From a virus: a stretch of DNA of 38,703 bases. The notes under the pieces are model-generated. The model was not told the DNA's origin and did not search any database. It was given only the letters and a program-made list of their open reading frames with translations. The position numbers were made by a program, and so were the translations under genes. Below, in pieces: positions 24,852 to 38,703 of the stretch; position 1 is the stretch's first letter, and each line of letters starts with the position of its first letter. The stretch is from positions 1 to 38,703 of the IMG/VR virus record IMGVR_UViG_3300032288_004567. One strand, 5' to 3'.

Positions 24852-24862
24852 GTTCTTTGACA

Positions 24863-25619: not shown

Positions 25620-25632
25620 TCTAAACCAACAC

Positions 25633-25842
25633 ATGATATCTAACAATACTATAGTATTAGCTGCAGTAGCAGTTGCTGATAAAATTGATACATTACACCG
25701 CAGAAAAGCTGAGTGTGAAAAGTGGATGAAAGAAGGCGACCAGAGTGAAGAAAATCAAAAGTTCTGGACGCATCATCTTGAAATGTTAGATAAAAACATT
25801 CAAGAGTATACAGAAGCAAGAAAAGAATTAATCAATAGCTGA
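25633..25842 (+). CDS. Small helical protein
   Basis: A 69-residue protein, Glu/Lys-rich and probably a coiled coil from about residue 15 on (LHRRKAECEKWMKEGDQSEE). I chose ATG 25633 behind the A/C-rich leader CTAAACCAACAC, since the upstream part of the frame crosses the tRNA-like element. No family recognised. Confidence 0.6.
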   Translation: MISNNTIVLAAVAVADKIDTLHRRKAECEKWMKEGDQSEENQKFWTHHLEMLDKNIQEYTEARKELINS

Positions 25843-25843
25843 T

Positions 25844-26116
25844 ATGTCAACAAGCGCTAAACTCGCCCTTCTTTGCGTGATGGTTAATCTGCCATTGCTG
25901 ATGGCAATTACCTTCATGAGCCGCGAACCTACGCAGCAGGAAATTTTCGACAGTGTTTCAAAATATGCACTTGCATACGAGAAGGCTGGCGATAAAGAGA
26001 AATACCTGGAAACAATTTACGATGAGGTCAAAGACATCGATGAGGTCGTTCTACCACACGATCTTAAAGTCTTTGTAATCAAAGTAAAAGTAAGCCAGTT
26101 TGGTAAACTAGATTGA
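25844..26116 (+). CDS. Small membrane-anchored protein
   Basis: A 90-residue protein with an N-terminal hydrophobic segment (residues 6-24, KLALLCVMVNLPLLMAITF) that is either a signal anchor or an uncleaved signal. The remainder is acidic and soluble (EIFDSVSKYALAYEKAGDKE). It starts one base after the previous stop and ends six bases before tRNA-Leu. Confidence 0.6.
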   Translation: MSTSAKLALLCVMVNLPLLMAITFMSREPTQQEIFDSVSKYALAYEKAGDKEKYLETIYDEVKDIDEVVLPHDLKVFVIKVKVSQFGKLD

Positions 26117-26121
26117 GATAT

Positions 26122-26207
26122 GGCCCAGTGGTGAAATGGTAGACACAACGGACTTAAAATCCGTTGCCTTTAAAAGCGTGCCGGTTCGAGTCCGGCCTGG
26201 GCTACCA
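26122..26207 (+). tRNA. tRNA-Leu (anticodon UAA)
   Basis: A class II tRNA of 86 nt: acceptor GGCCCAG/CTGGGCT, anticodon stem ACGGA/TCCGT with loop CTTAAAA, a long variable arm (TGCCTTTAAAAGCG), T arm GCCGG-TTCGAGT-CCGGC and encoded CCA. G1-U72 again. It would read UUA and UUG. Confidence 0.92.
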
Positions 26208-26256
26208 CTCGAAATAACCGCACTCGCGTGTTATTTCTTTAACTATCAAATAAATT

Positions 26257-26523
26257 ATGTCACAAGAAGCTGATACAACCACTAAAGTACCTGAAGTTGA
26301 GGCAATTTTTAACCAGCTGAATGCTGTCGATTTTACATTGGCGCAGCTGGCCATTGACCTCAAAGATCCTGATAAGCGCCAAGAAATTGGTATTAGACTT
26401 ATTGAGAACATTAACGAGGCTTTCACCAAAGGCCTTGAGTTCTCTGATGTTAAAGTTAAGAGTAAAGCCGGGGTAGCAACTGTGTCTTTTAAATTCCCAG
26501 TAGCTGCACTAGCTAAGAAATAA
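26257..26523 (+). CDS. Small hypothetical protein
   Basis: An 88-residue soluble protein, helical in its first 60 residues and beta-like at the end (VKVKSKAGVATVSFKFPVAA). No Shine-Dalgarno; the start sits in AAATAAATTATG. Unknown function. Confidence 0.6.
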   Translation: MSQEADTTTKVPEVEAIFNQLNAVDFTLAQLAIDLKDPDKRQEIGIRLIENINEAFTKGLEFSDVKVKSKAGVATVSFKFPVAALAKK

Positions 26524-26527
26524 TTAT

Positions 26528-26737
26528 ATGCGATACTTTTGTTTGCCTCGCGAAATAGTGGAATCTATTCAGAACTTTCCTCCTGCGAAAGAAGTGTACC
26601 GCCCGGTAACCTTTGTTCTAAAGGATGGGTCTGTTCGTGATGACGTTGATGTCATCAATTGTGAATTCTATGCTATGGATGAGACAAAGCATAAATACTT
26701 TGAACCTGCTGACATTTCTTTTGTAAGCGAGGGCTAA
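26528..26737 (+). CDS. Small hypothetical protein
   Basis: A 69-residue protein, five bases after the previous stop, with mixed beta-type sequence (PVTFVLKDGSVRDDVDVINC) and no motif. Unknown function. Confidence 0.55.
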   Translation: MRYFCLPREIVESIQNFPPAKEVYRPVTFVLKDGSVRDDVDVINCEFYAMDETKHKYFEPADISFVSEG

Positions 26738-26774
26738 AACTTTTTTGTTTTTCCTCTTGCGCAATTTAGAAAAC

Positions 26775-26789
26775 TTGCCAATATAAATT
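26775..26789 (+). promoter_or_regulatory. Possible promoter related to the TTGTGTTATATAAATT motif
   Basis: TTGCCAATATAAATT keeps TTG and ATATAAATT of the recurrent motif with one base less between them. It lies in a 114-base gap ahead of the gene at 26852. Weaker than the other three. Confidence 0.3.
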
Positions 26790-26851
26790 AATCTTGGAAG
26801 AGGTTGTTACCAAATCCAGAGCAATCCCAAACCCAAAACACATAACTAGAT

Positions 26852-27109
26852 ATGAAGAGAAAAGCACTGCCTGAAATTATCAAGGGACTTGAGCCACTTG
26901 AAGCCAACATCAAACGCGTTCGTACCAAGCCTCGTAAGAGCCTGTGGGATGAATTCTTTGGTACGCTTCAATCGGGTGATTCCTTTGAGATTGAGGCTCT
27001 GGAAGTTAACACCGTGAAGGCTCATGCTGAGAAGCATGGCTTTGAACTGCGCCACAAGAAGACCGAAGGCAACAAGGTCGTGGCCCAGGTTCATAAGGCT
27101 GAAGCGTAA
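26852..27109 (+). CDS. Small basic hypothetical protein
   Basis: An 85-residue protein with a basic first half (EANIKRVRTKPRKSLWDEFF) and a second half that alternates as if one alpha/beta domain (DSFEIEALEVNTVKAHAEKH). A/C-rich leader (CCAAAACACATAACTAGAT), own terminator downstream, possible promoter upstream: it looks like a single-gene unit. DNA or RNA binding is possible from charge alone. Confidence 0.6.
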   Translation: MKRKALPEIIKGLEPLEANIKRVRTKPRKSLWDEFFGTLQSGDSFEIEALEVNTVKAHAEKHGFELRHKKTEGNKVVAQVHKAEA

Positions 27110-27128
27110 TCGTTAATTAGAAACTTGG

Positions 27129-27159
27129 GGGCTACCACTTAACTGTGGTAGCCCTTTTT
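27129..27159 (+). terminator. Strong intrinsic terminator
   Basis: GGGCTACCAC (27129-27138) pairs perfectly with GTGGTAGCCC (27145-27154), loop of six, followed by TTTTT. Confidence 0.9.
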
Positions 27160-27187
27160 ATTTAGCTATTCTATCCCCAAACACATC

Positions 27188-27760
27188 ATGACATCAGACG
27201 AAATCAAATACGAAGTTGAGAAGGCATTAGCTGGAGACAAAACCTTAATGCTCAAAGGATATAAAAGTTCAGACGGTTCAGTAAAAGATTATGTAGTTCT
27301 TTTGCTGCCTGATGATGGATATAAAAATCTGGTTAAGACCAGCCATGAGAAGCTCAATAAAGAAACTGAGTTCTTCATGAATGAATTAAAGCCTGCAGAC
27401 GCTGATATTGCTGAGTGGGCTACTGCTATTACAGAACAGGTTGAAAGCTTCAATAAGAGCATGAGTGACAATAAACCTGTTAAGGAAATGCAGTTTAAGA
27501 ATCCTACAGTCAAGCAGGGTGGTATGCATTTTTACCAATCTGAATTTGAGTCAGGAGAAATTAATACTGTGATCATTAAGAATGTTCAGGTTCTTTCTAC
27601 TACCAATCATACACCTGATAAGGAAGCGAAAGAACCTAAAGGTAATATACCTCGGTATAAGAATTTGATTAGATCACAGCTACCTATCAGTCAGTATGTG
27701 GGTCAGTTTAACCTTTCCCCGGATAAAGTGGAGCTGGTTAAATCATTACATATGCCCTGA
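27188..27760 (+). CDS. Hypothetical protein
   Basis: A 190-residue soluble protein, acidic and Lys-rich, with no recognised domain. Its leader is A/C-rich (CCCCAAACACATC). Followed by the promoter-like motif at 27775, it ends a short unit that begins after the 27129 terminator. Confidence 0.6.
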   Translation: MTSDEIKYEVEKALAGDKTLMLKGYKSSDGSVKDYVVLLLPDDGYKNLVKTSHEKLNKETEFFMNELKPADADIAEWATAITEQVESFNKSMSDNKPVKEMQFKNPTVKQGGMHFYQSEFESGEINTVIIKNVQVLSTTNHTPDKEAKEPKGNIPRYKNLIRSQLPISQYVGQFNLSPDKVELVKSLHMP

Positions 27761-27774
27761 TATACAAGGCGGTG

Positions 27775-27794
27775 TTGTGTTATATAAATTTGTA
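27775..27794 (+). promoter_or_regulatory. Candidate phage promoter, copy 3
   Basis: TTGTGTTATATAAATTTGTA, identical to 23866-23885, 14 bases after a stop and 20 bases before ATG 27814. Even the following bases agree partly (CGGCAG versus GCGCAG). Confidence 0.6.
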
Positions 27795-27813
27795 GCGCAG
27801 CGCGCTATTTATC

Positions 27814-28446
27814 ATGAAACTACAACACTACCACGCAACCAGTTTCATGTCTCTTACTTCTGAGGGACGTGAAACTGGAAACAGGATCTGTCAGATTTTG
27901 ACAGATATGGATGCTCTTAAGAGTGTCCAAAGAATCAAACCTTCTGATGATTGGGTAGCCGATCACAGATATAACAACGAACAGCTGCTCGTCAAACAGG
28001 CGATGTCCTCGGTCGATTACGCCGAGGAGGCAGCGTTAGAACTCACCGAAGTTACTGCGCGTCGCAAGATGTCAGTAACCGATGAGCATCTGCAGTTGGT
28101 AATCAACGCTCAGTGCTTGGGAGCCAGACTCTACAGAAACCTTTGGGAGTTGTCTCTCTCAGATGATGATAAAAAGATCATGCGCAATCTGATCAAAAAG
28201 ATTGCTGTATTTTCTGTCTGGGAGGATCTTCCGACCACCATGGCGGGACATTCATACGAGCGTGTCTCAAACGACATGGATGGCGTCATCGCTTACCAGC
28301 ATGCGTATGGCGTTACTTTTATGGAGTACAAAAAAGGTAAGGCCACATCAGGCTGGACCCTTCTGCGTGAAGCCCTGGAAGAAAACGTCATTCTAGCTCG
28401 GTCTAGCTTTGACACGGCAGTAGATCACATGTCCCCTTCGACATGA
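27814..28446 (+). CDS. Hypothetical protein
   Basis: A 210-residue helical soluble protein. I see no named motif. It lies directly behind promoter copy 3 and overlaps the next gene by four bases (ATGA), so the two are probably co-translated. Codon use is GC-richer than average for the window. Confidence 0.6.
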   Translation: MKLQHYHATSFMSLTSEGRETGNRICQILTDMDALKSVQRIKPSDDWVADHRYNNEQLLVKQAMSSVDYAEEAALELTEVTARRKMSVTDEHLQLVINAQCLGARLYRNLWELSLSDDDKKIMRNLIKKIAVFSVWEDLPTTMAGHSYERVSNDMDGVIAYQHAYGVTFMEYKKGKATSGWTLLREALEENVILARSSFDTAVDHMSPST

Positions 28447-28628
28447 AAACAATAACCCCCCAAAACTCGCAAAGGGCGCTCAGAAGGGCTGTGGCAGGTA
28501 GCGTATTATGCGCTGCTCGAGCACATCCTGGAAAGGTAGACCCTGACATTGCAGGCAGTATTGTTAAGCGCCTCACTGGCCAACTGCTTGCACAATTCGA
28601 TATTAAACCCAAGTCTCCTGCCCGATAA
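28443..28628 (+). CDS. Small basic protein
   Basis: A 61-residue basic protein (NSQRALRRAVAGSVLCAARA) with an alternating basic and small-residue helix. It starts within the stop of the previous gene. A 9-bp hairpin follows immediately. Unknown function. Confidence 0.5.
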   Translation: MKTITPQNSQRALRRAVAGSVLCAARAHPGKVDPDIAGSIVKRLTGQLLAQFDIKPKSPAR

Positions 28629-28640
28629 TCCCGGGCAGGA
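28616..28640 (+). terminator. Weak terminator-like hairpin
   Basis: TCCTGCCCG pairs with CGGGCAGGA around a seven-base loop, overlapping the stop at 28626-28628. The downstream ACTTTCTCTTTAT is pyrimidine-rich but not a clean T-run. Confidence 0.45.
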
Positions 28641-28657
28641 ACTTTCTCTTTATCTGT

Positions 28658-29581
28658 ATGACACCTCCTCCTCCTTCCACAAACCCGTTCAGTGCGTTGC
28701 TTGACAGGCTTAATCATAAGCTTGGGCATGTGCGCACCTTCATTGGCGTTTACGTCAATTCCAAAGGCGAAATGAAAATTCTTAAAGATGCTACGACTGG
28801 CAAATTTGCCTGGCATCCGTCGTGTGCCTCGTTGCACACTGAGTTTTTAAAGCGCCTGCATAATCATGACGCTGAATATGAGAAATGTAATTTTTATGCC
28901 ATTGCTGGTATGAGTTACATTAATAATCAGCTGTTGATTAATGGTTATGAGAAAACCAAAGTCAAAGTAACCTCTGAGATGCTTATGGTGTTTAATGCTA
29001 TTGCATTAAATTTTCATAAGAATGCCAGTATTGGTATGTTCATGCCTATTGAGTATAATCTTAATAAGCTGTACGAGAAGATTAAAAAGGATCCTAGCTC
29101 TTTGTTTTCAGCCCTTACCCGAGCTAAGGAATTGGTCTTTACACAGACCAAGCCGTGTACATCATGTAGTACACTGTGTCATGTGCCTGATTTAAATGAT
29201 CATTCTGATTCGCTTCCTCCAGAGGCGCTTGAAGAAATCGAAAACATCAAAGAAAGCGACAAACATTTCTGTTTCAACTGCGGTAAAACGCTGATGATCA
29301 ACATGGCCAAGCATAAAATGATTGCCTGTGCAGACTTGAATAAAATCAAGCGCGTGCAGTCTTTGGTTGTTGAACTGGAGCAGTGTGACCTCAATAGTCT
29401 CAACTTTGATTTCAACAAGGCACAGAGCGTCATGCAGGAACTGATGGCAAATGTCAGCAAGACCAGCATGACTGTTGTTAATAATGATAAAGTTATGCAT
29501 AGGGAGAAGTTGGCACCAACTAATCCTGAAGCTAACAAGAGTGATTCCCCTAACACACCTACGCCACCCTGGATGAACTAA
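28658..29581 (+). CDS. Hypothetical zinc-binding protein
   Basis: A 307-residue protein. It has a Cys cluster CTSCSTLC at about residues 168-175 and a CFNCG knuckle at about 206-210, together one plausible zinc site separated by an acidic loop. The N-terminal half is not recognised. The C-terminus is a polar Pro/Thr-rich tail. Confidence 0.55.
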   Translation: MTPPPPSTNPFSALLDRLNHKLGHVRTFIGVYVNSKGEMKILKDATTGKFAWHPSCASLHTEFLKRLHNHDAEYEKCNFYAIAGMSYINNQLLINGYEKTKVKVTSEMLMVFNAIALNFHKNASIGMFMPIEYNLNKLYEKIKKDPSSLFSALTRAKELVFTQTKPCTSCSTLCHVPDLNDHSDSLPPEALEEIENIKESDKHFCFNCGKTLMINMAKHKMIACADLNKIKRVQSLVVELEQCDLNSLNFDFNKAQSVMQELMANVSKTSMTVVNNDKVMHREKLAPTNPEANKSDSPNTPTPPWMN

Positions 29582-29582
29582 C

Positions 29583-29930
29583 ATGAGCAACATCATCAAT
29601 GATATTTTTAACAAAGGCGCAGAACTGGCCCCAGTTGTGCAGCCTGATAACAAAAACACATTCCTTCTTACTGAGGATGAGTGTGCTTTTGTGAATGCAC
29701 TTAACCTTCAGACCGGCGCTTTGAAGACTATGCTCATCTCTATTGTTTCTTCGGTAGAAGAACATATGAGTACGCAGGTGAAAGTGCTGGAAGATATGAA
29801 GGATCAATTTATTACGGCTCTTGTGCAGAAGAACATTTCTAAGCCCGCAGAAATGCTGGGTACTGTGGAGATCGATCTTCCCAACAAGCTTCTGGTGATT
29901 AGACCTAAAGAAGAAGAGCAGCCACAATAA
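29583..29930 (+). CDS. Hypothetical protein
   Basis: A 115-residue protein, mainly helical in the middle (FVNALNLQTGALKTMLISIV) with an acidic Glu/Gln tail. It begins one base after the previous stop. Unknown function; a long structured non-coding gap follows. Confidence 0.6.
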   Translation: MSNIINDIFNKGAELAPVVQPDNKNTFLLTEDECAFVNALNLQTGALKTMLISIVSSVEEHMSTQVKVLEDMKDQFITALVQKNISKPAEMLGTVEIDLPNKLLVIRPKEEEQPQ

Positions 29931-29935
29931 TTTTC

Positions 29936-30136
29936 TTGGTATTGTTGTGGTATCAAGACGGATAACTCGCGGGTGTTCGATAGGCTACAAGTAGTATAGT
30001 ACTTGTCTATAGCGCAACGTGATATGCGTAGCTAACTGCGAGGTCACAAAAAGTATCTTGAGAAATACTTACCGTCCTTAGGGGCATGGTGGATCGCGGG
30101 AGGCGGTCTGGATTCTCAAACCTCCCACCTTTTATT
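29936..30136 (+). ncRNA. Structured leader, possible riboswitch or attenuator
   Basis: About 200 non-coding bases fold into a junction: GACGG (29957-29961) closes with CCGTC (30072-30076). Inside are ATAG-ACAAGTA/TACTTGT-CTAT (29980-30010, 11 bp with a GCT bulge), GTGA/TCAC enclosing CGTAG-CTAA-CTGCG (30019-30047) and AAGTAT/ATACTT (30051-30070). A further hairpin GGGAGG/CCTCCC (30098-30126) is followed by ACCTTTTATT and then ATG 30137, like a terminator placed before the gene. Junction plus terminator-like hairpin is the layout of a riboswitch or attenuator, but I recognise no known class and it might be an independent RNA. Confidence 0.5.
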
Positions 30137-30388
30137 ATGGAAGACAAAGTACGATGCCGTTCTTGCAACTGGATAGGGCTTAGAAAGAATTTACTATTCG
30201 GAGTAAATCCTTTTAATGTAGAAGAAACAATTCATGGATGCCCGGAGTGCAAACAATGCACTGAGGGTTTTGATGGGTTGTGCTACATTGAAGGATGTAA
30301 AGAACTGGCTGGCTGTGGGTTTCCCACAAAGACACAAGGATATTTATTTACATGTCACAAACATTATGAAGAACATAAGCACAGTTGA
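30137..30388 (+). CDS. Cys-rich zinc-binding phage protein
   Basis: An 83-residue protein with VRCRSCNWIG, HGCPECKQC, LCYIEGCKELAGCG and TCHKHYEEH, in total enough Cys/His for two zinc sites. The order CxxCxW, CPxC, C-GC, GxPT-GY-TCxKH resembles a small zinc protein widely seen in phages. I chose ATG 30137 over GTG 30086, since the latter would translate through the structured leader. Function unknown. Confidence 0.65.
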   Translation: MEDKVRCRSCNWIGLRKNLLFGVNPFNVEETIHGCPECKQCTEGFDGLCYIEGCKELAGCGFPTKTQGYLFTCHKHYEEHKHS

Positions 30389-30599
30389 CATTAATTGGAG
30401 GCCTGCTAGTGAGAAGCCAACAGGCTATGAGCGCAGAGTCTTATTATGGGTCGTATGGCCTGAAGAAGTAATGCTATGGCCCTCACGGCCTGAGGCAGTT
30501 ATAGGATGGTGGAAACACGGTCCTCAATGTTTTGGATTTGATAATATTGAACATGCAAATCACCTTGTAACACACTGGTGTGAAATACCTGAACCTTAA
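30366..30599 (+). CDS. DUF551-like small protein
   Basis: A 77-residue protein with INWRPASEKP near the N-terminus, VLLWVVWPE, VIGWWKHG and the ending VTHWCEIPEP. This is the pattern of DUF551 phage proteins, which begin with a W-x-P segment and end THWxPLPEPP. Start ATG 30366 overlaps the upstream gene by 23 bases. Function unknown. Confidence 0.65.
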   Translation: MKNISTVDINWRPASEKPTGYERRVLLWVVWPEEVMLWPSRPEAVIGWWKHGPQCFGFDNIEHANHLVTHWCEIPEP

Positions 30600-30602
30600 A
30601 CC

Positions 30603-30791
30603 ATGGACTACGACGACGAAGACGATAACCAAAATGAAAACACCGGCTGTGGATGCGGCGGTTGTTTATTTATAATTTTTTATACATTTACTGCATGGTT
30701 TATTTTATGGGCCATCTGCTTTGGTGTACGCCTACCTCCGGGCTTACTTGAAATTGATATCTTTCCTCCCTCAATTCGAATCACAAAATAA
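30603..30791 (+). CDS. Small membrane protein with acidic N-terminus
   Basis: A 62-residue protein: an acidic first 13 residues, a GCGCGGC cluster, then one hydrophobic helix (LFIIFYTFTAWFILWAICFG). It overlaps the next gene by one base (TAATG). Unknown. Confidence 0.55.
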   Translation: MDYDDEDDNQNENTGCGCGGCLFIIFYTFTAWFILWAICFGVRLPPGLLEIDIFPPSIRITK

Positions 30792-31231
30792 TGAAAGATA
30801 AAATAAAAATAGCTTTGGAATTTGTTAAATTTTTAATATCTGATAAAGAATTTTTAACAGCCTCTATAATATTTGTTATTTCATTTGCAGCGTGGTTGTA
30901 TTTGATGATTATCAGGCATAGCATGCTTGATATGTTTGTTCAGCCGCTGGCTGGTTACATGGGCTACCGTATTGCCAGGTATGGTAGATTCGCCTTCCTT
31001 CCCGGGGGTAAATGGTTAAGTGATCATTTTTATGCTAGAGTAAAGTATGGATTTGAATCCTGGTATAACTATTTTCGATTCATCAAAGAGAATACCTTTA
31101 CTCTGGATTATGAATACATTAGCAGAGAAATGATAAAGGGCGATCCGTCGTCCAAAAGAGAAACAACAGGCGTAGGTGCTGTCACCTTTGGCCTTGGAAG
31201 AAGTAAATATATTTTCAACCTGCAACACTAA
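30791..31231 (+). CDS. Membrane protein
   Basis: A 146-residue protein with one clear hydrophobic helix at about residues 22-42 (TASIIFVISFAAWLYLMII) and an aromatic, basic C-terminal domain. First of three membrane proteins in a row after the 30603 gene; unknown function. Confidence 0.6.
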   Translation: MKDKIKIALEFVKFLISDKEFLTASIIFVISFAAWLYLMIIRHSMLDMFVQPLAGYMGYRIARYGRFAFLPGGKWLSDHFYARVKYGFESWYNYFRFIKENTFTLDYEYISREMIKGDPSSKRETTGVGAVTFGLGRSKYIFNLQH

Positions 31232-31240
31232 ACACACATC

Positions 31241-31621
31241 ATGGATCCGACACTCGAACCCTATGTCAAGAAACTGTTAGATGGCGGTATGAAGACCGCT
31301 GAAGACATTGCTAAATTTGTTGAAGTTCAGACACCTGAACTTGGAAAAGAAATTATTACCTGGGGCGCAGCATCAGAAATTGTTGTGCCTATTTTTGGTT
31401 TACTGCTAGTAGTCACGACAATCTGGTTCCATTTTACTTATCGTAAAGAGAAGTGGTATAGTGGCGAAACTCGTTACGACGAGCCTCCAATTGTGCTTTT
31501 TAATACCATTGCATTTCTTGTGGGCATGCTCCTTTTCTTTATTCAGATTATGGATGTGCTTTATCCCATTATGGCTCCTCGTCTGTACATTCTGGAGAAG
31601 GTCAGTTCATTCGTTAAATAA
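31241..31621 (+). CDS. Two-helix membrane protein, paralogue of 31627
   Basis: A 126-residue protein: an amphipathic N-terminal 35 residues, two hydrophobic segments (about residues 46-66 IVVPIFGLLLVVTTIWFHF and 84-108 VLFNTIAFLVGMLLFFIQIM), and the ending APRLYILEKVSSFVK. The next protein ends APKVYLLETFSNVIK in the same context, so the two are related by duplication. Size and topology fit a phage holin pair, but this is only inference. Confidence 0.6.
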   Translation: MDPTLEPYVKKLLDGGMKTAEDIAKFVEVQTPELGKEIITWGAASEIVVPIFGLLLVVTTIWFHFTYRKEKWYSGETRYDEPPIVLFNTIAFLVGMLLFFIQIMDVLYPIMAPRLYILEKVSSFVK

Positions 31622-31626
31622 TCAAT

Positions 31627-32055
31627 ATGGCTAATACATCTACTCCTCCCCCTGCAATGGAATCCATTGATCAATTTGTTCAGTGGGCTGTTGAAAATGC
31701 ACAAGTGAAAGGTCCCAAGATTGTGGACTGGCTTTATACTGAAGTGCCTGAAGTTGTTCAACAATTTCTAGCGTGGAGCTTTGCAGAAAGCTTCCTTGGA
31801 TTCTTAGTTCGCTTCTTCTTTATTTTTGTTTATCCATTTGTTTTATATAAAGTAGCAAAGCACTTTTACGACAAATTAGAAGTAAGCAAAGCGCGTGATG
31901 AATCCTTCTTCTGGTTTCCAACTGTTATTATTAGTGGAGTTACTATTTTGGTATCTCAAATAGTCAGCTGGAACACCATTAATTTAATATGGTTAAAGAT
32001 CTGGCTAGCACCTAAGGTGTACCTGCTTGAAACCTTTTCTAATGTAATTAAATAA
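31627..32055 (+). CDS. Two-helix membrane protein, paralogue of 31241
   Basis: A 142-residue protein with hydrophobic segments at about residues 53-74 (SFLGFLVRFFFIFVYPFVLY) and 96-118 (FWFPTVIISGVTILVSQIV) and the ending APKVYLLETFSNVIK shared with the upstream gene. Membrane topology resembles holin or holin-like proteins. Five bases separate the two genes. Confidence 0.6.
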   Translation: MANTSTPPPAMESIDQFVQWAVENAQVKGPKIVDWLYTEVPEVVQQFLAWSFAESFLGFLVRFFFIFVYPFVLYKVAKHFYDKLEVSKARDESFFWFPTVIISGVTILVSQIVSWNTINLIWLKIWLAPKVYLLETFSNVIK

Positions 32056-32057
32056 TT

Positions 32058-32330
32058 ATGAGTAAAAAACAACAGTCTCCACAAAAGATTCTCATTGAAG
32101 TGCTCGAAGGAGTTAATCCTATTGCGCATATGTTTATTTTTGATTCGCTTTCCAAGAACATTGACATCGTTCTTACGCACCAAGAAGAACTTCGAGAGAG
32201 TTTTAAGAAGACTCTAATCGATGGTGATGCTTGGATTAATGCAGCTGAGCAGCTCAAAGTTGCCTTAGGCTGGGAGGATCAACCTACAAAACAAACTACT
32301 AATGACTCTGTTTCAGAAGTTAGTGTATAA
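32058..32330 (+). CDS. Small hypothetical protein
   Basis: A 90-residue acidic helical protein (QKILIEVLEGVNPIAHMFIF then FKKTLIDGDAWINAAEQLKV). It starts two bases after the upstream stop (TAATTATG) and overlaps the next gene by 29 bases. Unknown. Confidence 0.6.
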   Translation: MSKKQQSPQKILIEVLEGVNPIAHMFIFDSLSKNIDIVLTHQEELRESFKKTLIDGDAWINAAEQLKVALGWEDQPTKQTTNDSVSEVSV

Positions 32331-32490
32331 GCTATACAGACGGGTGATGAACCCATACTTCCATAAGTATCCCGGGGCGATGATTCCTGTTATGTTTTCA
32401 TTTCAGGACAGCATTAGAGAGGCCGGATTTAGAGATGAGGAATTAATTCTGTTAAGAAAACAATATGATGAATCAAAAAAAGCCAAGTAA
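32302..32490 (+). CDS. Small hypothetical protein
   Basis: A 62-residue basic protein (LFQKLVYKLYRRVMNPYFHK) with an amphipathic N-terminus. It overlaps both neighbours (29 and 26 bases), which makes it a weaker call than they are, but the frame fills the gap between them. Confidence 0.5.
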   Translation: MTLFQKLVYKLYRRVMNPYFHKYPGAMIPVMFSFQDSIREAGFRDEELILLRKQYDESKKAK

Positions 32491-32785
32491 ATTGGCGTCT
32501 GCATTAGCAGGTTGTTATACCATATTCATGGTACTATCTACTGCTTTAATTATTACTGTCTTATGCTTTTGGGTTGTAAAAGCTTCTTTAGCAGTACTGG
32601 ATCCGGCTGATCCTATGAAGAAGCTTGAAGCTGCTATTGATGCACTGCCTGACAGTCCATTGAAGCGTAATCTCTATACTATCCTAGCATCTGAATATGC
32701 GAGTGATAGTGAGGAATTGAATGGTATTCTGCAGGCATACTCTGAGATGAAAATTCAAGAGCTGCAGAATGGTAAATCACTATAA
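32465..32785 (+). CDS. Membrane-anchored protein
   Basis: A 106-residue protein with one N-terminal hydrophobic helix at about residues 12-43 (YTIFMVLSTALIITVLCFWV) and a soluble C-terminal helical region. Adjacent ATGs at 32465 and 32468 are equally likely starts. Signal-anchor topology resembles a spanin or regulator of lysis, without further proof. Confidence 0.55.
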   Translation: MMNQKKPSKLASALAGCYTIFMVLSTALIITVLCFWVVKASLAVLDPADPMKKLEAAIDALPDSPLKRNLYTILASEYASDSEELNGILQAYSEMKIQELQNGKSL

Positions 32786-32788
32786 GCC

Positions 32789-33070
32789 ATGCATAGTCAT
32801 TCAGCTAATAATGAAATAAATATATCAATTCATCAAACTCCTGTATTACCATCTGCGCAGCATATTTTAAATGTGCTGCGCAATTTGCTTAAATATGCAG
32901 AACGCAATACGTGTTTGCATGATGAGACATATAGAGGTGGTACGAATTGGGAAATCTGTTCTTCTTGCGGTGCTCGCTGGGCCGATGATGAGGGAGGAAA
33001 ACCTCCTTATGTTCATGAGTATCCGAAAGCTATTTTAGATGCTCAAGATCTTTTAATCTTATACAAATGA
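32789..33070 (+). CDS. Small zinc-binding phage protein
   Basis: A 93-residue protein with NTCLHDETYRGGTNWEICSS then CGARWADDEGG at about residues 46-76. The C-x-H...C-x-x-C-G-x-x-WADDEGG pattern is a recurrent small phage protein with one zinc site. The C-terminal helix (YPKAILDAQDLLILYK) is also family-like. Function unknown. Confidence 0.65.
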   Translation: MHSHSANNEINISIHQTPVLPSAQHILNVLRNLLKYAERNTCLHDETYRGGTNWEICSSCGARWADDEGGKPPYVHEYPKAILDAQDLLILYK

Positions 33071-33077
33071 AAACAAA

Positions 33078-33497
33078 ATGATTGAATGTGATGATGTTGA
33101 AGAGGTTAGTTCAGCACCTTCAACGCTGGAAGAATATGTAAGAAGTTGTTTAGACCAGCATGTTTCTTTTGAAGCTAATGTAGCCAAGAAGAAACTGTAT
33201 GGAATCTTTTATAATGGTGTGCGTATTAAAACGCATTCCAAAAAGGGGGTATTTAATAATCCGGGAGCAGCTAAGCTTTCATTGTATCAATGCTTTAATA
33301 ATAAAGCGAGGACACTGGCTTATGCTAGGCCTAAAGATCCTAATGCACTTAATCTCAGCCATGTGGCGTACCATGATACATCTGGGCTGGCTGAAATATT
33401 TAAAGGTAAAAACCTTGATCACATGAGTAAAATCTCTGCATTTAGAGAGGAGTTACTTAAACACGTAGAAATTAGGGAGCTTAGCGATGGCTGTTAA
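33078..33497 (+). CDS. Hypothetical protein
   Basis: A 139-residue protein. The middle (KKLYGIFYNGVRIKTHSKKG to AYARPKDPNA) looks like a small alpha/beta fold. It overlaps the next gene by 11 bases. No family recognised. Confidence 0.55.
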   Translation: MIECDDVEEVSSAPSTLEEYVRSCLDQHVSFEANVAKKKLYGIFYNGVRIKTHSKKGVFNNPGAAKLSLYQCFNNKARTLAYARPKDPNALNLSHVAYHDTSGLAEIFKGKNLDHMSKISAFREELLKHVEIRELSDGC

Positions 33498-34212
33498 TGT
33501 TGAGCTTCGTAACTATGGTGTAGAGATAGCTTTATGCGATTATGCGTCAAATAATGCAGGGTGGCAAAACACCTATGAGGCTGAGCTGGAAAATGAAGCT
33601 AAAACTTGGATGAGCCCTGGAAAAGCATTTCCTTGGCGAACAAGAAATAATGCTGGCTATACACATGGGCTATTATTTGATAGCAACATGGCTATTGTTG
33701 TGAAGGACGATGCAGGGAAAGTGCTGGATCAATTTAAAGGATCTGAATGCATGGACCTTACATATGTGCATAAGGAGTACTCATCTGTGCCTTATAAGCA
33801 GTACAGAAGTCATAATTCACATGGAAGGATAACAGCAATGGAGATTACCCAGAGCGGGTACCAACGCAGTAGACTTCCCATTTCTCCTCAACAATATTCC
33901 CGGGATCTAATCCATATTGGCTTGAGTAAAGTCGATTACATTGTAACTAATGATGAGAACGGGTGGTATCTGAATTGCTCAAAAGCTTTTATTGTAGATC
34001 TAGACACCAGTCTGGAATTGACAATAGATAATAAGAAAACGCATAGTGTGAATGCGTGTATGGAAGAGATTAAAATACATGGTCCCACATATCAGCAGGT
34101 GCTTGTTCAAACATATGGGTATTATCCTCCCAAGGTATTTACCGAAGCAAACCGCAGAGATTGTGACAGCCTGTACAAGTATATAATTAGCAAAGCTGAA
34201 TTTAAGAAATAA
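33487..34212 (+). CDS. Hypothetical protein
   Basis: A 241-residue soluble protein rich in Tyr and Asn with no motif I can name. Possible start ATG 33487 lies within the previous gene. It is followed by a 48-base A/C-rich leader for the small gene at 34261. Confidence 0.6.
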   Translation: MAVNVELRNYGVEIALCDYASNNAGWQNTYEAELENEAKTWMSPGKAFPWRTRNNAGYTHGLLFDSNMAIVVKDDAGKVLDQFKGSECMDLTYVHKEYSSVPYKQYRSHNSHGRITAMEITQSGYQRSRLPISPQQYSRDLIHIGLSKVDYIVTNDENGWYLNCSKAFIVDLDTSLELTIDNKKTHSVNACMEEIKIHGPTYQQVLVQTYGYYPPKVFTEANRRDCDSLYKYIISKAEFKK

Positions 34213-34260
34213 TTCCGTCAGATAAACCCACAACACAACCTCAAAGAAAAACACAATACT

Positions 34261-34416
34261 ATGGCAGTCTCCATTCGCTCATGCAATTGCAAACATGAAT
34301 CCAAGGACAGCATGTATGGCAAATCCCAGCGCTTGCATAACAAGTGCGGTAAAGGTCATCGCTGCACTGTGTGCGGTAACGTGAAAGGTTCTACCGAATC
34401 TCCCACGAAAAAGTAA
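34261..34416 (+). CDS. Small conserved-type zinc protein (51 aa)
   Basis: The frame from ATG 34261 to TAA 34414-34416 gives 51 residues with SCNCKHESKDSMYGKSQRLH, then NKCGKGHRCTVCGNVK: C-x-C-x-H and C-x-x-C around a YGKxxRxHNK core. This order is typical of a short phage zinc protein. It has a long A/C-rich leader without Shine-Dalgarno and a large hairpin directly after it. Not among longer frames but well supported by motif. Confidence 0.7.
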   Translation: MAVSIRSCNCKHESKDSMYGKSQRLHNKCGKGHRCTVCGNVKGSTESPTKK

Positions 34417-34419
34417 TTA

Positions 34420-34473
34420 ATTTGTAGCCTAAAATCCTGGGGTTGATTAATTTCAGCCCCAGGATCTACAAAT
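34420..34473 (+). terminator. Long interrupted hairpin after the 51-aa gene
   Basis: ATCCTGGGGTTGA (34434-34446) pairs with TCAGCCCCAGGAT (34453-34465), 13 bp with one G-U, and an outer ATTTGTAG (34420-34427) pairs with CTACAAAT (34466-34473), with a six-base bulge CCTAAA on one side only. No T-run follows directly. It could be a terminator, a 3'-end stabiliser or a protein or RNA binding site. Confidence 0.5.
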
Positions 34474-34568
34474 AGTTTGCATGTCATTATTTTTAGCTCA
34501 TAATCGATATAGCTGATAGCTAAAGAAAAGAGTCAAAATAGACATAAATATTTAAATATATAAATTGA
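34474..34568 (+). promoter_or_regulatory. Non-coding gap with hairpin and promoter-like sequence
   Basis: TTTAGCT (34492-34498) pairs with AGCTAAA (34518-34524) around a 19-base loop. TATATAAATT at 34557-34566 repeats the core of the phage promoter motif, but it ends two bases before ATG 34569, so a promoter there would give a leaderless message. A separate transcription unit for the modification cassette is plausible. Confidence 0.3.
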
Positions 34569-35516
34569 ATGTTTAATACACCGCCAGTAAATCCTTCGTT
34601 AGCGTTAATAAGGAAAAACGAAGGAAGATTATATTCTGAGGACGTGGCGCTGAAGGAATTAAATGAAAGGTTCGCTGATACATTTACTTCCAGTATAGAA
34701 CCAATGGGAAAGAAAAACCTGGTATATTTCACTATTAATTATAATATAGAGTATGTAGATTTATTTTTGTATTGTCTTAAATCGATTGTTAATAAAGATG
34801 AACCTGATGCATTTGATTTATTGGTGATATGTCCTGTGTCGTTTGAAAAGACAATTAATGAATTGATTTATGATCGTAATATTGATCTGAAAGGATTTAA
34901 TTTACTGTTTCATAATGTGGATGAGGCTAAGGATGGTGTTGAGGCTTCAATGAATAAATTGAAGATATACCAATTCAATAATATCATTGAGTATGGAAAG
35001 GTATTATTCCTGGATGTGGACATATTGGCTAAGGAGCCAATTAGTGAATTGTTTAATTTGGAATTAGATCCTGATATTCTTTATTCCGCTATTCATAATG
35101 CATCTGATCATTTGCATAATACTAAGTTCCATAAATTGGTGGATTATGATTTAGCTAAAATGAATGAATTCCGTGATAAGCGGATATATGCATTTAATGC
35201 AGGTCAATTCATGTTTATTAATAGCATGAAGATGATGCACCACATGTATAATGTGGATTGGATGACTCGAGCTTGGCCCGGAGAATATTTCTTTGAGCAA
35301 GCATTTATGAACCATTATTTTAATTGGTTCTGCATTTCAAATGTGCATTTGTTGGATAATCATGTTAAGTTCATTGCTGTACATTTATGGGACAAAGGAG
35401 ACTTTGCGCATCAGTACAGATTGAGTTATTCTATTATCCATTTTGCTGGGCATGCATGTGATGCTAGCAAGAAGATAGAATACATTCGTCATTTTCACCC
35501 AGACTTAATTAAATAA
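34569..35516 (+). CDS. Glycosyltransferase, GT8-like (DxD)
   Basis: A 315-residue protein. KVLFLDVDILAKEPISELF at about residues 145-163 is a GT-A metal-binding DxD (DVD) strand like those of GT8 enzymes. FNAGQFMFINSMKM (about 213-226) and the C-terminal YSIIHFAGH (about 291-299) fit the acceptor-side segments of that family. It would move a sugar from a nucleotide sugar onto an acceptor in the cytoplasm. First gene of a tight run with a sulfotransferase one base downstream, so its product may be the sulfation substrate. Low-GC N-terminus. Donor and acceptor unknown. Confidence 0.65.
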   Translation: MFNTPPVNPSLALIRKNEGRLYSEDVALKELNERFADTFTSSIEPMGKKNLVYFTINYNIEYVDLFLYCLKSIVNKDEPDAFDLLVICPVSFEKTINELIYDRNIDLKGFNLLFHNVDEAKDGVEASMNKLKIYQFNNIIEYGKVLFLDVDILAKEPISELFNLELDPDILYSAIHNASDHLHNTKFHKLVDYDLAKMNEFRDKRIYAFNAGQFMFINSMKMMHHMYNVDWMTRAWPGEYFFEQAFMNHYFNWFCISNVHLLDNHVKFIAVHLWDKGDFAHQYRLSYSIIHFAGHACDASKKIEYIRHFHPDLIK

Positions 35517-35517
35517 T

Positions 35518-36144
35518 ATGTCCAACTACAAACTTTCTCATTGTAATTTCATTCACATTCCTAAATGTGGCGGTACAGCTTTGAATACTGCACTTTGGCA
35601 ATTAGGAGTAATTACTGATAGAGCGAATCAAATTATTGCTGAACCTGCTTATGGGCATTTATTTCCATCGCAGATGCCTGAGAATGGAAAGCCATTTTTT
35701 AGTTTTGTACGGCATCCTGTTTCTTGGTGGATGTCATTCTACCATTGGAATATGAATCCTGCGCATAGCAGATTCTCAGAGCAGGAACGTGCTACCACTT
35801 CATTTGATGAATGGTTACGTGATTATGGTCAGGCCTGGCTTGGATATTATACGATGCTAGTACGGCGTTATATAGGTAAGGACCTATTGTTCCCATCCAA
35901 TAACAAAGTGGATTTCATTGGGCGTACAGAATACATGTTTCATGACCTGCGTAATATTTTTAATACTATTGGTCAACCTTACAGAGTCGATGTGATGAAG
36001 GATCTTGTCTCTGGTAAACTTTCAATTGATCCTGCCTATGCTAATATTCAGCAATATGACCGTACCGCTGTTTCTCCAGAATCCCGGGAGCTTATTCAGA
36101 AATGTGAGCAGTTCATTTATGTGACGTTTGGATATAAATTATAA
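35518..36144 (+). CDS. Sulfotransferase (PAPS-dependent)
   Basis: A 208-residue protein with the 5'-phosphosulfate loop NFIHIPKCGGTAL at about residues 10-22 (Lys 16 is the expected PAPS contact) and the 3'-phosphate motif FSFVRHPVSWWMSFYHW at about 61-77 (Arg and Ser). FIGRTEYMFHDL near 139-150 also fits the family. It most resembles Sulfotransfer_2-type carbohydrate sulfotransferases. It would transfer sulfate from PAPS to a glycan or other acceptor. The APS kinase at 36866 can make PAPS, which strongly supports this call. Confidence 0.8.
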   Translation: MSNYKLSHCNFIHIPKCGGTALNTALWQLGVITDRANQIIAEPAYGHLFPSQMPENGKPFFSFVRHPVSWWMSFYHWNMNPAHSRFSEQERATTSFDEWLRDYGQAWLGYYTMLVRRYIGKDLLFPSNNKVDFIGRTEYMFHDLRNIFNTIGQPYRVDVMKDLVSGKLSIDPAYANIQQYDRTAVSPESRELIQKCEQFIYVTFGYKL

Positions 36145-36146
36145 TT

Positions 36147-36860
36147 ATGGAGGAATACAACGTAGATTTACTGGGTAAATGGCATCATGACATCGTCATA
36201 TCTGAAGGTGTTAGGACCAGCCATTTGTCTACGCCTTATAATGGTGATGCCTTTGTATGCAAAGAAAAGATAGCCAGCAATATTAAAAGTATTTATGGTG
36301 ATTCTTTGAAAGATAAAAAGGTTCTGGATATCGCCTGTAATGCAGGCGGACATCTATTTGCATTAAATCGGTTCGGTATTAAATCCGGATTTGGATTTGA
36401 TATACGTTCGTTATGGATAAAGCAAGCTAATTGGGTACAAAGGAATATTGATATACCCTGTGATAACTTATTGTTTGCGCAGGGTAGCTTTGATTTGTTG
36501 AAGCATTTTGCTGATCGTCATTTCCATTTGTCTTTGTTCAACGGTATCTTTTACCATCTAGCTAACCCTATTAGCGAGCTGGAGAAGGTAGCGAATAAAA
36601 CATCTGAGATTATTATTGTTAACACTGCATACGATCCTGACTCTAATTGCTCTAATCCCGCACTAATATGTAAGAATGAGTCTAATGCTATGGAGCATGG
36701 CTTGAGCGGTGTTGAAGGTTTATCCTGGCATCCAAATGGCGAGCAGGTTTTATTTAAAATCCTGGCGCATCTTGGATTTCCTTATAATAAACTATCATTC
36801 AAGAATCCTGATAACAGAAGACTCGAGGTCATAGCTTCCCGGGTCCCTGATTTAATATAA
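36147..36860 (+). CDS. SAM-dependent methyltransferase
   Basis: A 237-residue protein with Rossmann motif I KVLDIACNAGGHLFAL at about residues 58-73, GFGFDIRS as motif II, and SLFNGIFYHLANPISELEKV as motifs IV-V. KWHHDIVISEG at the N-terminus resembles CmoB-like enzymes, which act on tRNA, but sugar methyltransferases share this layout. Between the sulfotransferase and the APS kinase, methylation of the same glycan is the simplest idea. It starts two bases after the previous stop. Confidence 0.7.
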   Translation: MEEYNVDLLGKWHHDIVISEGVRTSHLSTPYNGDAFVCKEKIASNIKSIYGDSLKDKKVLDIACNAGGHLFALNRFGIKSGFGFDIRSLWIKQANWVQRNIDIPCDNLLFAQGSFDLLKHFADRHFHLSLFNGIFYHLANPISELEKVANKTSEIIIVNTAYDPDSNCSNPALICKNESNAMEHGLSGVEGLSWHPNGEQVLFKILAHLGFPYNKLSFKNPDNRRLEVIASRVPDLI

Positions 36861-36865
36861 TAAAT

Positions 36866-37375
36866 ATGTATTCAGTATTGTGGCTTTATGGTTTATCTGG
36901 AAGTGGTAAGACTACTCTTACAAGCTATGCACAGCATGTAATTGAGTCTTGGCATATTCCACATATCGTATTAGATGCAGATGAACTGAGAAAGAATTAC
37001 TGGCCTGAGGTTGGGTTATCTAAAGATGCACGATTAGAAAATACTCGACGCATTGCTAGACTTGCCAAGACTTATAAGGACCTGGGTGTAGCTGTAATAG
37101 TTGCGGCTTGCGCTCCATTCCAAGAACAAAGGAATGAAGTGCTGCAGGTATTGCCTGATACTAAATTTGTTTTTGTGAACACTTCATTGGGCACATGTAA
37201 GAAGCGAAAGCCTCATACATATATGGACCAAACTAAATTGGTTTCTTCAGTTGATCCTTTACCTGCTCCCTGGGCAAGTATTGATGGTAGCCGAGAAATT
37301 GAATCGATTCTTGATAGTGTATCTGACATCTTAGAAAGATGGATACCATTCCCTCTCGGTGCCTTGAATTCATAG
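36866..37375 (+). CDS. cysC: Adenylylsulfate (APS) kinase
   Basis: A 169-residue P-loop kinase with LWLYGLSGSGKTTLTSYAQH at the N-terminus (Walker A residues 9-17), LDADELRKNYWPEVGLSKDA (about 40-59), RLENTRRIARLAKTYKDLGV and AVIVAACAPFQEQR. This order matches APS kinase: GLSGSGKST, DGDxxR, GFSxxDRxENIRR, SPxxxxR. It phosphorylates APS to PAPS, the sulfate donor. The Asp-for-Gly change in LDAD and Cys-Ala for Ser in the SP segment are family variations I would note. With the sulfotransferase two genes upstream, the phage supplies its own PAPS; APS must come from the host. The end overlaps the next gene by 37 bases. Confidence 0.8.
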   Translation: MYSVLWLYGLSGSGKTTLTSYAQHVIESWHIPHIVLDADELRKNYWPEVGLSKDARLENTRRIARLAKTYKDLGVAVIVAACAPFQEQRNEVLQVLPDTKFVFVNTSLGTCKKRKPHTYMDQTKLVSSVDPLPAPWASIDGSREIESILDSVSDILERWIPFPLGALNS

Positions 37376-37971
37376 GCTCCAAAGTACAAGAACTAATCCA
37401 ACATGGGATTAGCGTTCATTTGACTAATGGTCGGTGTATAAACAATAAGTATGCCGGTACATTTAATTCTCATAGAAAATCACTGTCTGTAGCCATGGGC
37501 TTAGGTAATTTTAGTGTGTATACATTTTTGCATGAGTACGCACATTTTATTCAGTATAGAGATAAAAATGAGTTATGGAAGCATTTACATGAGGAAGGAC
37601 CATGTAAATATATTGGCTGGTTGAATAGAGAGATTACTCTTTCCAAGTCAGAGATAGAATCAGCATTTAGAAATAGCCTGGCGCTTGAACATGATGCCGA
37701 GACAATGGCTATAGGTATGGCTTTAACGCATAACCTTCCGTTGGATGTTTCTGATATATCTCGCGTCGCTAATAATAATCTACTATTCTATTCTTGGACC
37801 CGAATTAGGCGAGATTGGAATAGTGGTTATATGGGTGTATCTGATGCTATTATTGAACAACACTTACCTGAAGTCCTTCAACCACTTGACTACTTTACTG
37901 ATATGAAAAATGCTAAAAAGATATTTAAACAGGCAGGTGTACGCATCGGCCAACACACCCGGTATTATTGA
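37339..37971 (+). CDS. Zinc metallopeptidase-like (HEYAH)
   Basis: A 210-residue protein with FLHEYAHFIQY at about residues 63-73 (His 65, Glu 66, His 69) and a downstream LEHDAE at about 116-121, a layout of gluzincins in which the third ligand is a Glu. The helix before HEYAH and the following aromatic segment fit a peptidase. No signal peptide is visible, so it probably acts in the cytoplasm or virion. Start ATG 37339 lies inside the kinase gene. Confidence 0.6.
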   Translation: MDTIPSRCLEFIGSKVQELIQHGISVHLTNGRCINNKYAGTFNSHRKSLSVAMGLGNFSVYTFLHEYAHFIQYRDKNELWKHLHEEGPCKYIGWLNREITLSKSEIESAFRNSLALEHDAETMAIGMALTHNLPLDVSDISRVANNNLLFYSWTRIRRDWNSGYMGVSDAIIEQHLPEVLQPLDYFTDMKNAKKIFKQAGVRIGQHTRYY

Positions 37972-37973
37972 TT

Positions 37974-38198
37974 ATGGGCGATACTTCTGATAGCGATATT
38001 TATTTTAATGCTTTCCTCTTAAATCCTTGGCTAGCTTTACATCATACTGTGCTTAATGGTATTGATAGTTTTGCGCAGAGAGAATTTAGGGATGATGTTT
38101 GGAATTTTACTAAAGATACTCTTTGGTCTTCTGTTGATGCTTCTATCAGTACGCATGCTACTTTTGTTGATAACTTTATGAAATCTTATGACACTTGA
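37974..38198 (+). CDS. First member of FMKSYDT-ended ORF chain
   Basis: A 74-residue protein (MGDTSDSDIYFNAFLLNPWL onward). The N-terminal half is unique, while the second half (DDVWNFTKDTLWSSVDASIS) already shows the degenerate four-residue period, and it ends NFMKSYDT, the terminal peptide of all members of the chain. I chose ATG 37974 rather than TTG 37968. Its last 11 bases overlap the start of the next ORF. Confidence 0.6.
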   Translation: MGDTSDSDIYFNAFLLNPWLALHHTVLNGIDSFAQREFRDDVWNFTKDTLWSSVDASISTHATFVDNFMKSYDT

Positions 38199-38394
38199 TA
38201 CTTCTGTTATTAATTCTGTTTATAATTCTGTTTGTAATTCTGTTTGGAATTCTGTTAGTAATTCTGTTTGTAATTCTGTTAGTAATTCTGTTTGGGAGTC
38301 TGTTTGGGCTTCTATTTGTAATTCTGTTCATGATTCTATTAGTAATTCTATTGATAACTCCATTACTACCTTTATGAAATCATATGACACTTAA
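38188..38394 (+). CDS. NSVx tetrapeptide-repeat protein, unit 2
   Basis: A 68-residue protein: MTLDTSVI, then thirteen or so repeats of the pattern N-S-V-x (NSVYNSVCNSVWNSVSNSV), drifting to NSIx, and the ending FMKSYDT. DNA repeats with a 12-base period, AATTCTGTTNNN, where the variable codon is often TAT, TGT, TGG or AGT. The start ATG is in the last codons of the previous ORF (ATGACACTTGA). Function unknown; the regular V every four residues would favour an unusual helix or solenoid. Confidence 0.55.
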   Translation: MTLDTSVINSVYNSVCNSVWNSVSNSVCNSVSNSVWESVWASICNSVHDSISNSIDNSITTFMKSYDT

Positions 38395-38470
38395 AGACTC
38401 TGTTAGTAATTCTGTTCGGGACTCTGTTTATGATTCCATTGATAACTTTATGAAATCTTATGACACTTAA
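38384..38470 (+). CDS. NSVx chain, short unit 3 (28 aa)
   Basis: The frame ATG 38384 to TAA 38468-38470 encodes MTLKDSVSNSVRDSVYDSID and NFMKSYDT. It overlaps unit 2 and unit 4 by 11 bases each through the shared sequence ATGACACTTAA, in which the stop of one frame and the start of the next interlock. It is too short for a usual gene call, but the identical architecture supports it. Confidence 0.5.
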   Translation: MTLKDSVSNSVRDSVYDSIDNFMKSYDT

Positions 38471-38471
38471 A
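38411..38471 (+). repeat. 61-base direct repeat, copy 1
   Basis: Identical to 38643-38703, covering the C-terminal coding end, the ATGACACTTAAA junction and the first codon pair of the next unit. It marks the duplicated junction of the NSVx chain. Confidence 0.9.
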
Positions 38472-38702
38472 GACTCTGTTGATAATTCTGTTAATAAGTC
38501 TGTTGAGAATTATGTTTGTAATTCTGTTAATAATTCTGTTAATAAGTCTGTTGAGAATTATGTTTGGTACTCTGTTGAGAATTATGTTTGGAATTATGTT
38601 TGGAATTCTGTTTATAATTCTGTTAATAATTCTGTTAATAAGTCTGTTCGGGACTCTGTTTATGATTCCATTGATAACTTTATGAAATCTTATGACACTT
38701 AA
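38460..38702 (+). CDS. NSVx tetrapeptide-repeat protein, unit 4
   Basis: An 80-residue protein starting MTLKDSVDNSVNKSVENYVC, followed by repeats that mix NSVx, KSVE and NYVx, with an internal near-repeat of about 39 bases (NSVNKSVENYV twice), and ending DSIDNFMKSYDT. Its start overlaps unit 3 and its end overlaps another ATGACACTTAAA at 38692. The repeat composition implies frequent slippage or recombination. Confidence 0.55.
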   Translation: MTLKDSVDNSVNKSVENYVCNSVNNSVNKSVENYVWYSVENYVWNYVWNSVYNSVNNSVNKSVRDSVYDSIDNFMKSYDT

Positions 38703-38703
38703 A
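38643..38703 (+). repeat. 61-base direct repeat, copy 2
   Basis: Exact copy of 38411-38471, running to the last base of the window. Confidence 0.9.
38692..38703 (+). CDS. Start of the next NSVx chain unit (partial)
   Basis: ATGACACTTAAA (MTLK) repeats the start of units 3 and 4 and runs off the window, so the chain probably continues. Confidence 0.4.

Follow-up and report, generated by a model that had tools for sequence, protein, structure and literature searches.

Within the 38.7-kb virus record IMGVR_UViG_3300032288_004567 of IMG/VR, which derives from an uncultivated phage and is referred to here as the window (38,703 nt in full), we analysed four open reading frames (ORFs) that lie in series on the + strand at 34569-37375. 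They encode a glycosyltransferase (GT), a sulfotransferase (ST), a methyltransferase (MT) and a protein of the adenosine 5'-phosphosulfate (APS) kinase family, and we believe, with a probability of roughly 0.6, that they constitute a phage-encoded cytosolic sulfo-glycosylation cassette whose acceptor is most likely a virion protein of the tail or fibre. This reading draws on the enzyme classes, on the order and linkage of the genes, on a fusion of GT and ST in one relative, and on conserved catalytic residues, fold, selection and a conserved boundary hairpin. An earlier note, made from the sequence alone, had proposed a sulfation cassette at this site. Its four ORFs were all located where it had placed them, separated by gaps of 1, 2 and 5 nt, and its motifs were verified: GLSGSGKTT, LDADELR and RLENTRR in the kinase, HIPKCGGTAL and FVRHPVSWW in the ST, and a DxD within LFLDVDI in the GT.

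Three further IMG/VR contigs, G001 (101 kb), G002 (74 kb) and G003 (121 kb), share the cassette or its core together with most other window genes. The cassette genes of these related phages encode proteins of 61-83% identity, and the ratio of non-synonymous to synonymous substitution rates (dN/dS), 0.09-0.27 where measurable, indicates purifying selection on the GT, ST and kinase; a chance origin of the gene run can therefore be dismissed. The GT and ST are retained in all four phages. In G003 the order is that of the window, GT-ST-MT-kinase, while in G001 one 538-aa ORF encodes a fusion of GT and ST, joined by a linker of ~20 residues; the kinase follows directly, and the MT is absent. In G002 a repeat ORF follows the GT-ST pair, and the contig, which ends ~245 nt further on, shows no MT or kinase up to that point. 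The core of the cassette is GT-ST, with the kinase and MT as accessories; the kinase adjoins the ST in G001 and lies one gene from it in the window and in G003. The fusion, seen on one metagenomic contig, is the strongest single sign of a common acceptor for the two enzymes and suggests, as the earlier note had it, that this acceptor is a glycan. The proposed methylation of that glycan could apply to the window and G003, but the absence of the MT from G001 means that it is not a fixed part of the system. The portal and terminase of the window lineage are just 21-24% identical to those of Vibrio phages D69/D148/D181 and Salmonella phage Arash, which places it as a deeply divergent lineage of large phages; a megablast search with window positions 20000-38000 returned no match.

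Judged by its single sequence, the 35518 protein is a weak candidate for a sulfotransferase, as its match to Sulfotransfer_2 (PF03567; E 0.017, 15.7 bits) lies below the Pfam cut-off of 22 bits; its assignment is settled, however, by family evidence and by the modelled fold. PHROG 3347, annotated as Galactose-3-O-sulfotransferase, matches it at 1.3e-4. Across 57 aligned viral proteins, whose mean identity is 19%, no column other than K16, R65 and S73 is invariant, although E138 comes close; K16 was partly forced by the search pattern used to collect the homologues, whereas R65 and S73 lie outside that pattern. We take K16 to be the 5'-phosphosulfate-binding Lys and R65 and S73 to be the 3'-phosphate-binding Arg and Ser of the family, the catalytic residues whose loss the earlier note had named as the hazard to its proposal. 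PF03567 is matched at E<=0.01 by 39 of the 57 members (best 9.1e-22), and one homologue, L034, exceeds the cut-off with 24.5 bits. An AlphaFold (AF2) model built on the 57-row alignment reached a predicted local distance difference test score (pLDDT) of 92.7 and a predicted template modelling score (pTM) of 0.88, superseding an unusable model (pLDDT 48) whose input held only four relatives. Foldseek and VIA-align comparison of the model yielded sulfotransferases for all of the top 50 entries, most of them with 3'-phosphoadenosine 5'-phosphate (PAP) bound, at Z 8.8-10.9 over 173-192 residues. The best among the matches listed is heparan sulfate 2-O-sulfotransferase 4ndz (Z 10.9, 185 residues, 3.8 Å), and the others include 3-O-sulfotransferases, NDST1, SULTs, StaL and Teg12. 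Since the Z values are close among sulfotransferase types, the acceptor class is not readable from the fold; that the nearest folds include glycan sulfotransferases (heparan sulfate 2-O, 3-O and N), tied with SULTs, supports glycan sulfation.

Sequence searches of the PDB with the ST profile and with the GT profile found nothing, and tblastn of either protein against 50,697 phage records gave no match. Among ~85,000 prokaryote genomes, a pattern scan with an 11-member ST alignment, whose reach is genes with the chosen peptide patterns, returned just two remote partial matches and no cellular source; within that reach, the ST subfamily looks virus-restricted. On several phage contigs, ST paralogues are clustered in groups of two to four (L034:8001-8633 and 9750-10361; L089 on G014; L041).

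The kinase matches APS_kinase (PF01583) at 3.7e-25 (89.2 bits against a cut-off of 21.1), far better than it fits other small kinases (AAA_33, 9e-9), and its PDB matches (best 3.2e-19) fall without exception on APS kinase domains or on the APS-kinase-like domains of ATP sulfurylase. Neither of the two outcomes that the earlier note had named as refuting its proposal, a better fit to other small kinases and loss of the catalytic ST residues, was thus observed. Aligned with bona fide CysC, it retains K15 of the P-loop, D39, R42, R56 and N59. In structures of Mycobacterium tuberculosis CysC, the ribose is held by Asp480 and the APS phosphosulfate by Arg483 and Arg497 (PMC4373884); by spacing, D39, R42 and R56 are the phage counterparts of these three residues. 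The 36866 protein is thus an APS-kinase-family member that probably makes 3'-phosphoadenosine 5'-phosphosulfate (PAPS), with APS as its likely substrate. Neither ATP sulfurylase (PF01747) nor CysD/PAPS reductase (PF01507) was found above cut-off in the window or in G001-G003, contigs that may be incomplete, and APS would therefore have to come from the host. Donor synthesis, which the earlier note had called complete, is accordingly encoded in its second step alone.

Elsewhere, the phage cysC loci L123-L126 have no related ST on the stretch read, so that cysC alone does not predict sulfation, and a cellular precedent for linkage is found on a Haladaptatus plasmid, where cysC lies two genes from an ST gene. 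The kinases of other ST-bearing phages (G007-G009) were considered as support and rejected, as they are of an NADxxR type without ENxRR. As a separate observation, L042:6316-7143 (G007) and L136 (the Haladaptatus plasmid) each encode, near an ST gene, an APS-kinase-like domain followed by an HxGH nucleotidyltransferase motif (GRYQPFHVGH and GRWQPLHKGH, respectively). Such proteins might activate sulfate in two steps, or might be unrelated kinase-nucleotidyltransferases.

The GT is matched by Glyco_transf_8 (PF01501) with 25.4 bits against a cut-off of 24.3, and its homologues in G002 (2.1e-7, 31.2 bits) and G005 (1.7e-5) are matched by the same family; the DxD (LFLDVDI/LYLDADT) is kept in all six GT homologues. 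The MT (METHYLTRANSFERASE), 64% identical to its G003 copy, lies above the cut-off for Methyltransf_31 (PF13847) and also matches PF08003. Its match to TIGR04290 reaches 5.9e-16 yet stays under the curated cut-off, and its likeness to TIGR04290 and CmoB, below curated cut-offs in both cases, is that of the S-adenosylmethionine (SAM)-binding part. A second region, read by eye, holds probable glycosyltransferase, methyltransferase, radical-SAM and sugar-nucleotide genes, at ~1.7-16.6 kb of G001 (L009) and ~77-94 kb of G003 (L023).

From these enzymes we infer the substrates, the acceptor and the benefit of the cassette. Host ATP sulfurylase would make APS, the phage kinase would phosphorylate its 3'-OH to give PAPS, and the GT8 enzyme would add a sugar to the acceptor, after which the ST would transfer sulfate from PAPS to a hydroxyl of the added sugar. 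In the phages that carry it, the MT would cap another group, and host CysQ would recycle PAP. The resulting sulfated, negatively charged virion glycan would affect how the particle adsorbs, how stable it is or how it is recognised. All four proteins lack membrane segments (the maximum 19-residue Kyte-Doolittle mean is 1.1), and cytosolic chemistry is therefore expected. A virion protein is the most likely acceptor because all of the enzymes look soluble and because GT-ST-MT adjoins virion genes in T4-like phages.

Indeed, the GT-ST-MT order recurs in a second setting, in L026 (contig G004) and L035 (contig G005), with ~50% identity for the ST, ~49% for the MT and ~31% for the GT, and with no kinase after the MT. 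The L026 cassette comes after genes matching tail-fibre, minor-tail and virion-structural PHROGs. G005, which looks T4-like from its gene content, has almost nothing else in common with the window lineage, and G004 has two further proteins in common with G001/G002. Both transfer of the GT-ST-MT core as a block from one lineage to another and inheritance of an old module common to them are possible. A more specific proposal, to which we give somewhat below even odds, is that the phage places sulfated glycans on its own virions by means of a dedicated module, in which PAPS from a kinase with a remodelled lid is passed to a coupled, and in one relative fused, GT-ST, and whose core is common to two unrelated large-phage lineages; virion sulfo-glycosylation would then be a recurrent phage trait, and many orphan phage sulfotransferases would be explained.

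Several observations weigh against virion sulfo-glycosylation. The window cassette adjoins small unknown ORFs and no recognised virion genes, so that the case for a virion acceptor depends on distant relatives. No kinase occurs in G004, in G006 or, as far as the contig reaches, in G002, and the sole kinase match of G005 is subthreshold and lies away from the cassette; the kinase and ST pair is thus not obligatory. From the kinase lid, KGLYxKAR...FTG is missing; the lid is ~8 residues shorter, with R114 retained, and in place of the lid lysine (Lys562) the three phage kinases have His, His and Tyr, respectively; because the lid is altered, the substrate could differ. The main rival acceptor, with the same chemistry, is a host surface glycan, namely a lipid-linked precursor of lipopolysaccharide or exopolysaccharide, whose modification would change the receptor and thereby shut out superinfecting phages, or would affect the infected cell. 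Bacteria do possess sulfated capsules and the clusters for their biosynthesis (PMC11641403), and soluble GTs can act on lipid-linked precursors at the cytosolic face; the run, however, includes no flippase, membrane GT or polymerase, and the L026 cassette lies in a virion-gene region, and we regard this acceptor as unlikely, though as the foremost of the alternatives.

Rather less probable still is that the kinase phosphorylates another nucleotide, and that the sulfotransferase-fold enzyme transfers a non-sulfate group or uses host PAPS. The CysC-like Cj1415 of Campylobacter is a cytidine diphosphoramidate kinase. Besides the lid, such a reading is favoured by an adenine pocket in which LGF has become VGL, with Leu51 in place of the usual Phe, and by a score of 89.6 bits against the TIGR00455 equivalog, whose cut-off of 138.7 is not reached; the earlier designation as an APS kinase thus stands for the family match and the APS-site residues and is weakened at these three points. 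Against another nucleotide, Asp39, Arg42, Arg56 and Asn59 match APS-site residues, those corresponding to Arg483 and Arg497 included (PMC4373884), no PDB match falls outside the APS kinase and ATP sulfurylase domains, and the gene sits with that of the ST. That the kinase instead boosts host sulfate reduction, as part of an auxiliary metabolic set for sulfur assimilation with unrelated neighbours, has a precedent in the freshwater phages, in which cysC is common and is read in this way (62 cysC genes, PMC10914622), but is very improbable here: PAPS reductase (cysH), CysD and Sat are all missing above cut-off from the four related, possibly incomplete contigs, and in three phages the kinase is linked to a PAPS-using enzyme. 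Modification of phage DNA bases or tRNA, giving a glycosylated or sulfated base with the help of a CmoB-like MT, would accord with the weak CmoB similarity and with the fact that phages do glycosylate DNA. That similarity is confined to the SAM-binding core, however, the closest ST folds act on glycans and small molecules, and no DNA-modification partner was seen in the run, which makes this the most improbable of the readings considered.

The cassette is preceded by a hairpin that occupies the same position in all four related phages, between the cassette and a Cys-rich ORF, and whose stem is altered on both sides (covarying). The arms are ATCCTGGGG/CCCCAGGAT in the window, ACCCTTGGG/CCCAAGGGT in G002 and TGTCCGGGGG/CTCCCGGACA in G003, with an invariant GATTAATTTC core. 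It is a probable transcription boundary (a terminator without a T-run) or leader element, and would most simply be read as a boundary by which the cassette is set apart as a separate expression unit. At the other end, a metallopeptidase-like ORF extends the four-gene run of the earlier note by one gene; an 81% identical copy adjoins the kinase in G001, and no counterpart was found in G003.

Table 1. Genes and other features of the cassette region in the window.
Feature	Position	Strand	Details
Glycosyltransferase, GT8-like	34569..35516	+	315 aa; DxD in LFLDVDI; PF01501 1.3e-5, over cut-off
PAPS-dependent sulfotransferase (predicted)	35518..36144	+	208 aa; Lys16 (5'-phosphosulfate-binding), Arg65 and Ser73 (3'-phosphate-binding)
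SAM-dependent class I methyltransferase (CmoB/TIGR04290-like)	36147..36860	+	237 aa; PF13847 4.4e-7, PF08003 5.8e-6
APS-kinase-family protein	36866..37375	+	169 aa; PF01583 3.7e-25; Lys15, Asp39, Arg42, Arg56 and Asn59 kept; lid shortened and altered
HEXXH metallopeptidase-like ORF, optional neighbour	37339..37971	+	HEYAH motif; 37-nt overlap with kinase
Conserved RNA hairpin, 5' of cassette	34434..34465	+	13-bp stem, loop TTAATT, -24.5 kcal/mol

The Cys-rich ORF just 5' of the hairpin (34261-34416) encodes a conserved, zinc-ribbon-like protein of 51 aa and is also present in G001 and G002. Downstream of the cassette, the window and contigs G001 and G002 carry tandem small ORFs of a tetrapeptide repeat (xNSV/xDSV) with a 12-nt DNA period, several of which share a KSYDT-like tail; such ORFs lie at 38131-38703 of the window, ~22-24 and 31.6-33.0 kb of G001, 73966-74193 of G002 and 71.3-72.4 kb of G003. 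The window also holds four tRNA genes at 24777-26207 (Arg-TCT, Ile-GAT, Met-CAT and Leu-TAA). Intein-like insertions in core genes differ among the related phages, and in G001 are found in the terminase (91393-94299, L013), DNA polymerase (67883-72283) and helicase (78717-81239, L012). Shine-Dalgarno-like motifs show hardly any enrichment ahead of genes over random positions (9% against 14% at random in the window, 10% against 13% in G003 and 19% against 11% in G001), and gene starts are preceded by A/T-rich sequence. This may fit a host with little Shine-Dalgarno use, such as one of the Bacteroidota; a freshwater origin of the phage is a guess.

The earlier note considered a pairing of donor synthesis and transfer to be unusual in phages, but such rarity is relative. 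A scan of viral records with the ST alignment identified 79 loci with related sulfotransferases, and an APS_kinase-family protein above cut-off was present in 9 of the 53 ST-bearing records tested, mostly non-adjacent and of a different subtype. Taken singly, sulfotransferases, cysC and virion glycosylation are all already known from phages; none of the open-licence papers searched described their union as GT, ST and kinase within a single run that features a GT-ST fusion. Sulfotransferase genes occur widely in phage metagenomes; the cassette offers a first concrete idea of their role. Above all through the GT-ST fusion, it would join phage ST and cysC into one statement, that the phage makes PAPS in order to sulfate a sugar it has itself added. 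Sulfated glycans of the virion or host surface would represent a new layer of phage-host recognition.

Compared with known enzymes, the window ST has the fold, the PAPS-binding Lys/Arg/Ser and the motif order of the Sulfotransfer_2 carbohydrate sulfotransferases (PF03567; heparan sulfate 2-O-sulfotransferase, 4ndz/3f5f). It is 12% identical to the latter, shorter, soluble and, taken alone, below the Pfam cut-off, and 3-O-STs, NDST and SULTs match it almost as well. The kinase has in common with CysC/PAPSS (PF01583, TIGR00455) the P-loop, LDxD, both APS-binding arginines, ENxRR and a SPY-like loop (CAPF), and differs from them, in the three phage sequences so far, in its VGL, in the ~8 residues missing from the KGLYxKAR..FTG lid motif and in its sub-equivalog score. 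Like the cysC auxiliary metabolic genes of freshwater phages (PMC10914622), it belongs to the APS kinase family and is carried by a large phage; unlike them, it occurs without cysH and in one run with an ST, which points to the use of PAPS in sulfation. Mycobacteriophages likewise encode a GT, together with an MT, for glycosylation of their virion proteins (Freeman 2023, as cited in PMC11652166 and PMC13313380), where the citing passages mention no sulfation; here, the virion acceptor is a prediction. Finally, sulfotransferase genes of PHROG 3347, which also matches the window ST, have been described in OM43 phages and Synechococcus phage S-SRM01, with a function that the authors call unclear (PMC10580990). 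In contrast to these, the ST of the window lineage is linked or fused to a GT and is linked to a kinase that probably forms PAPS.

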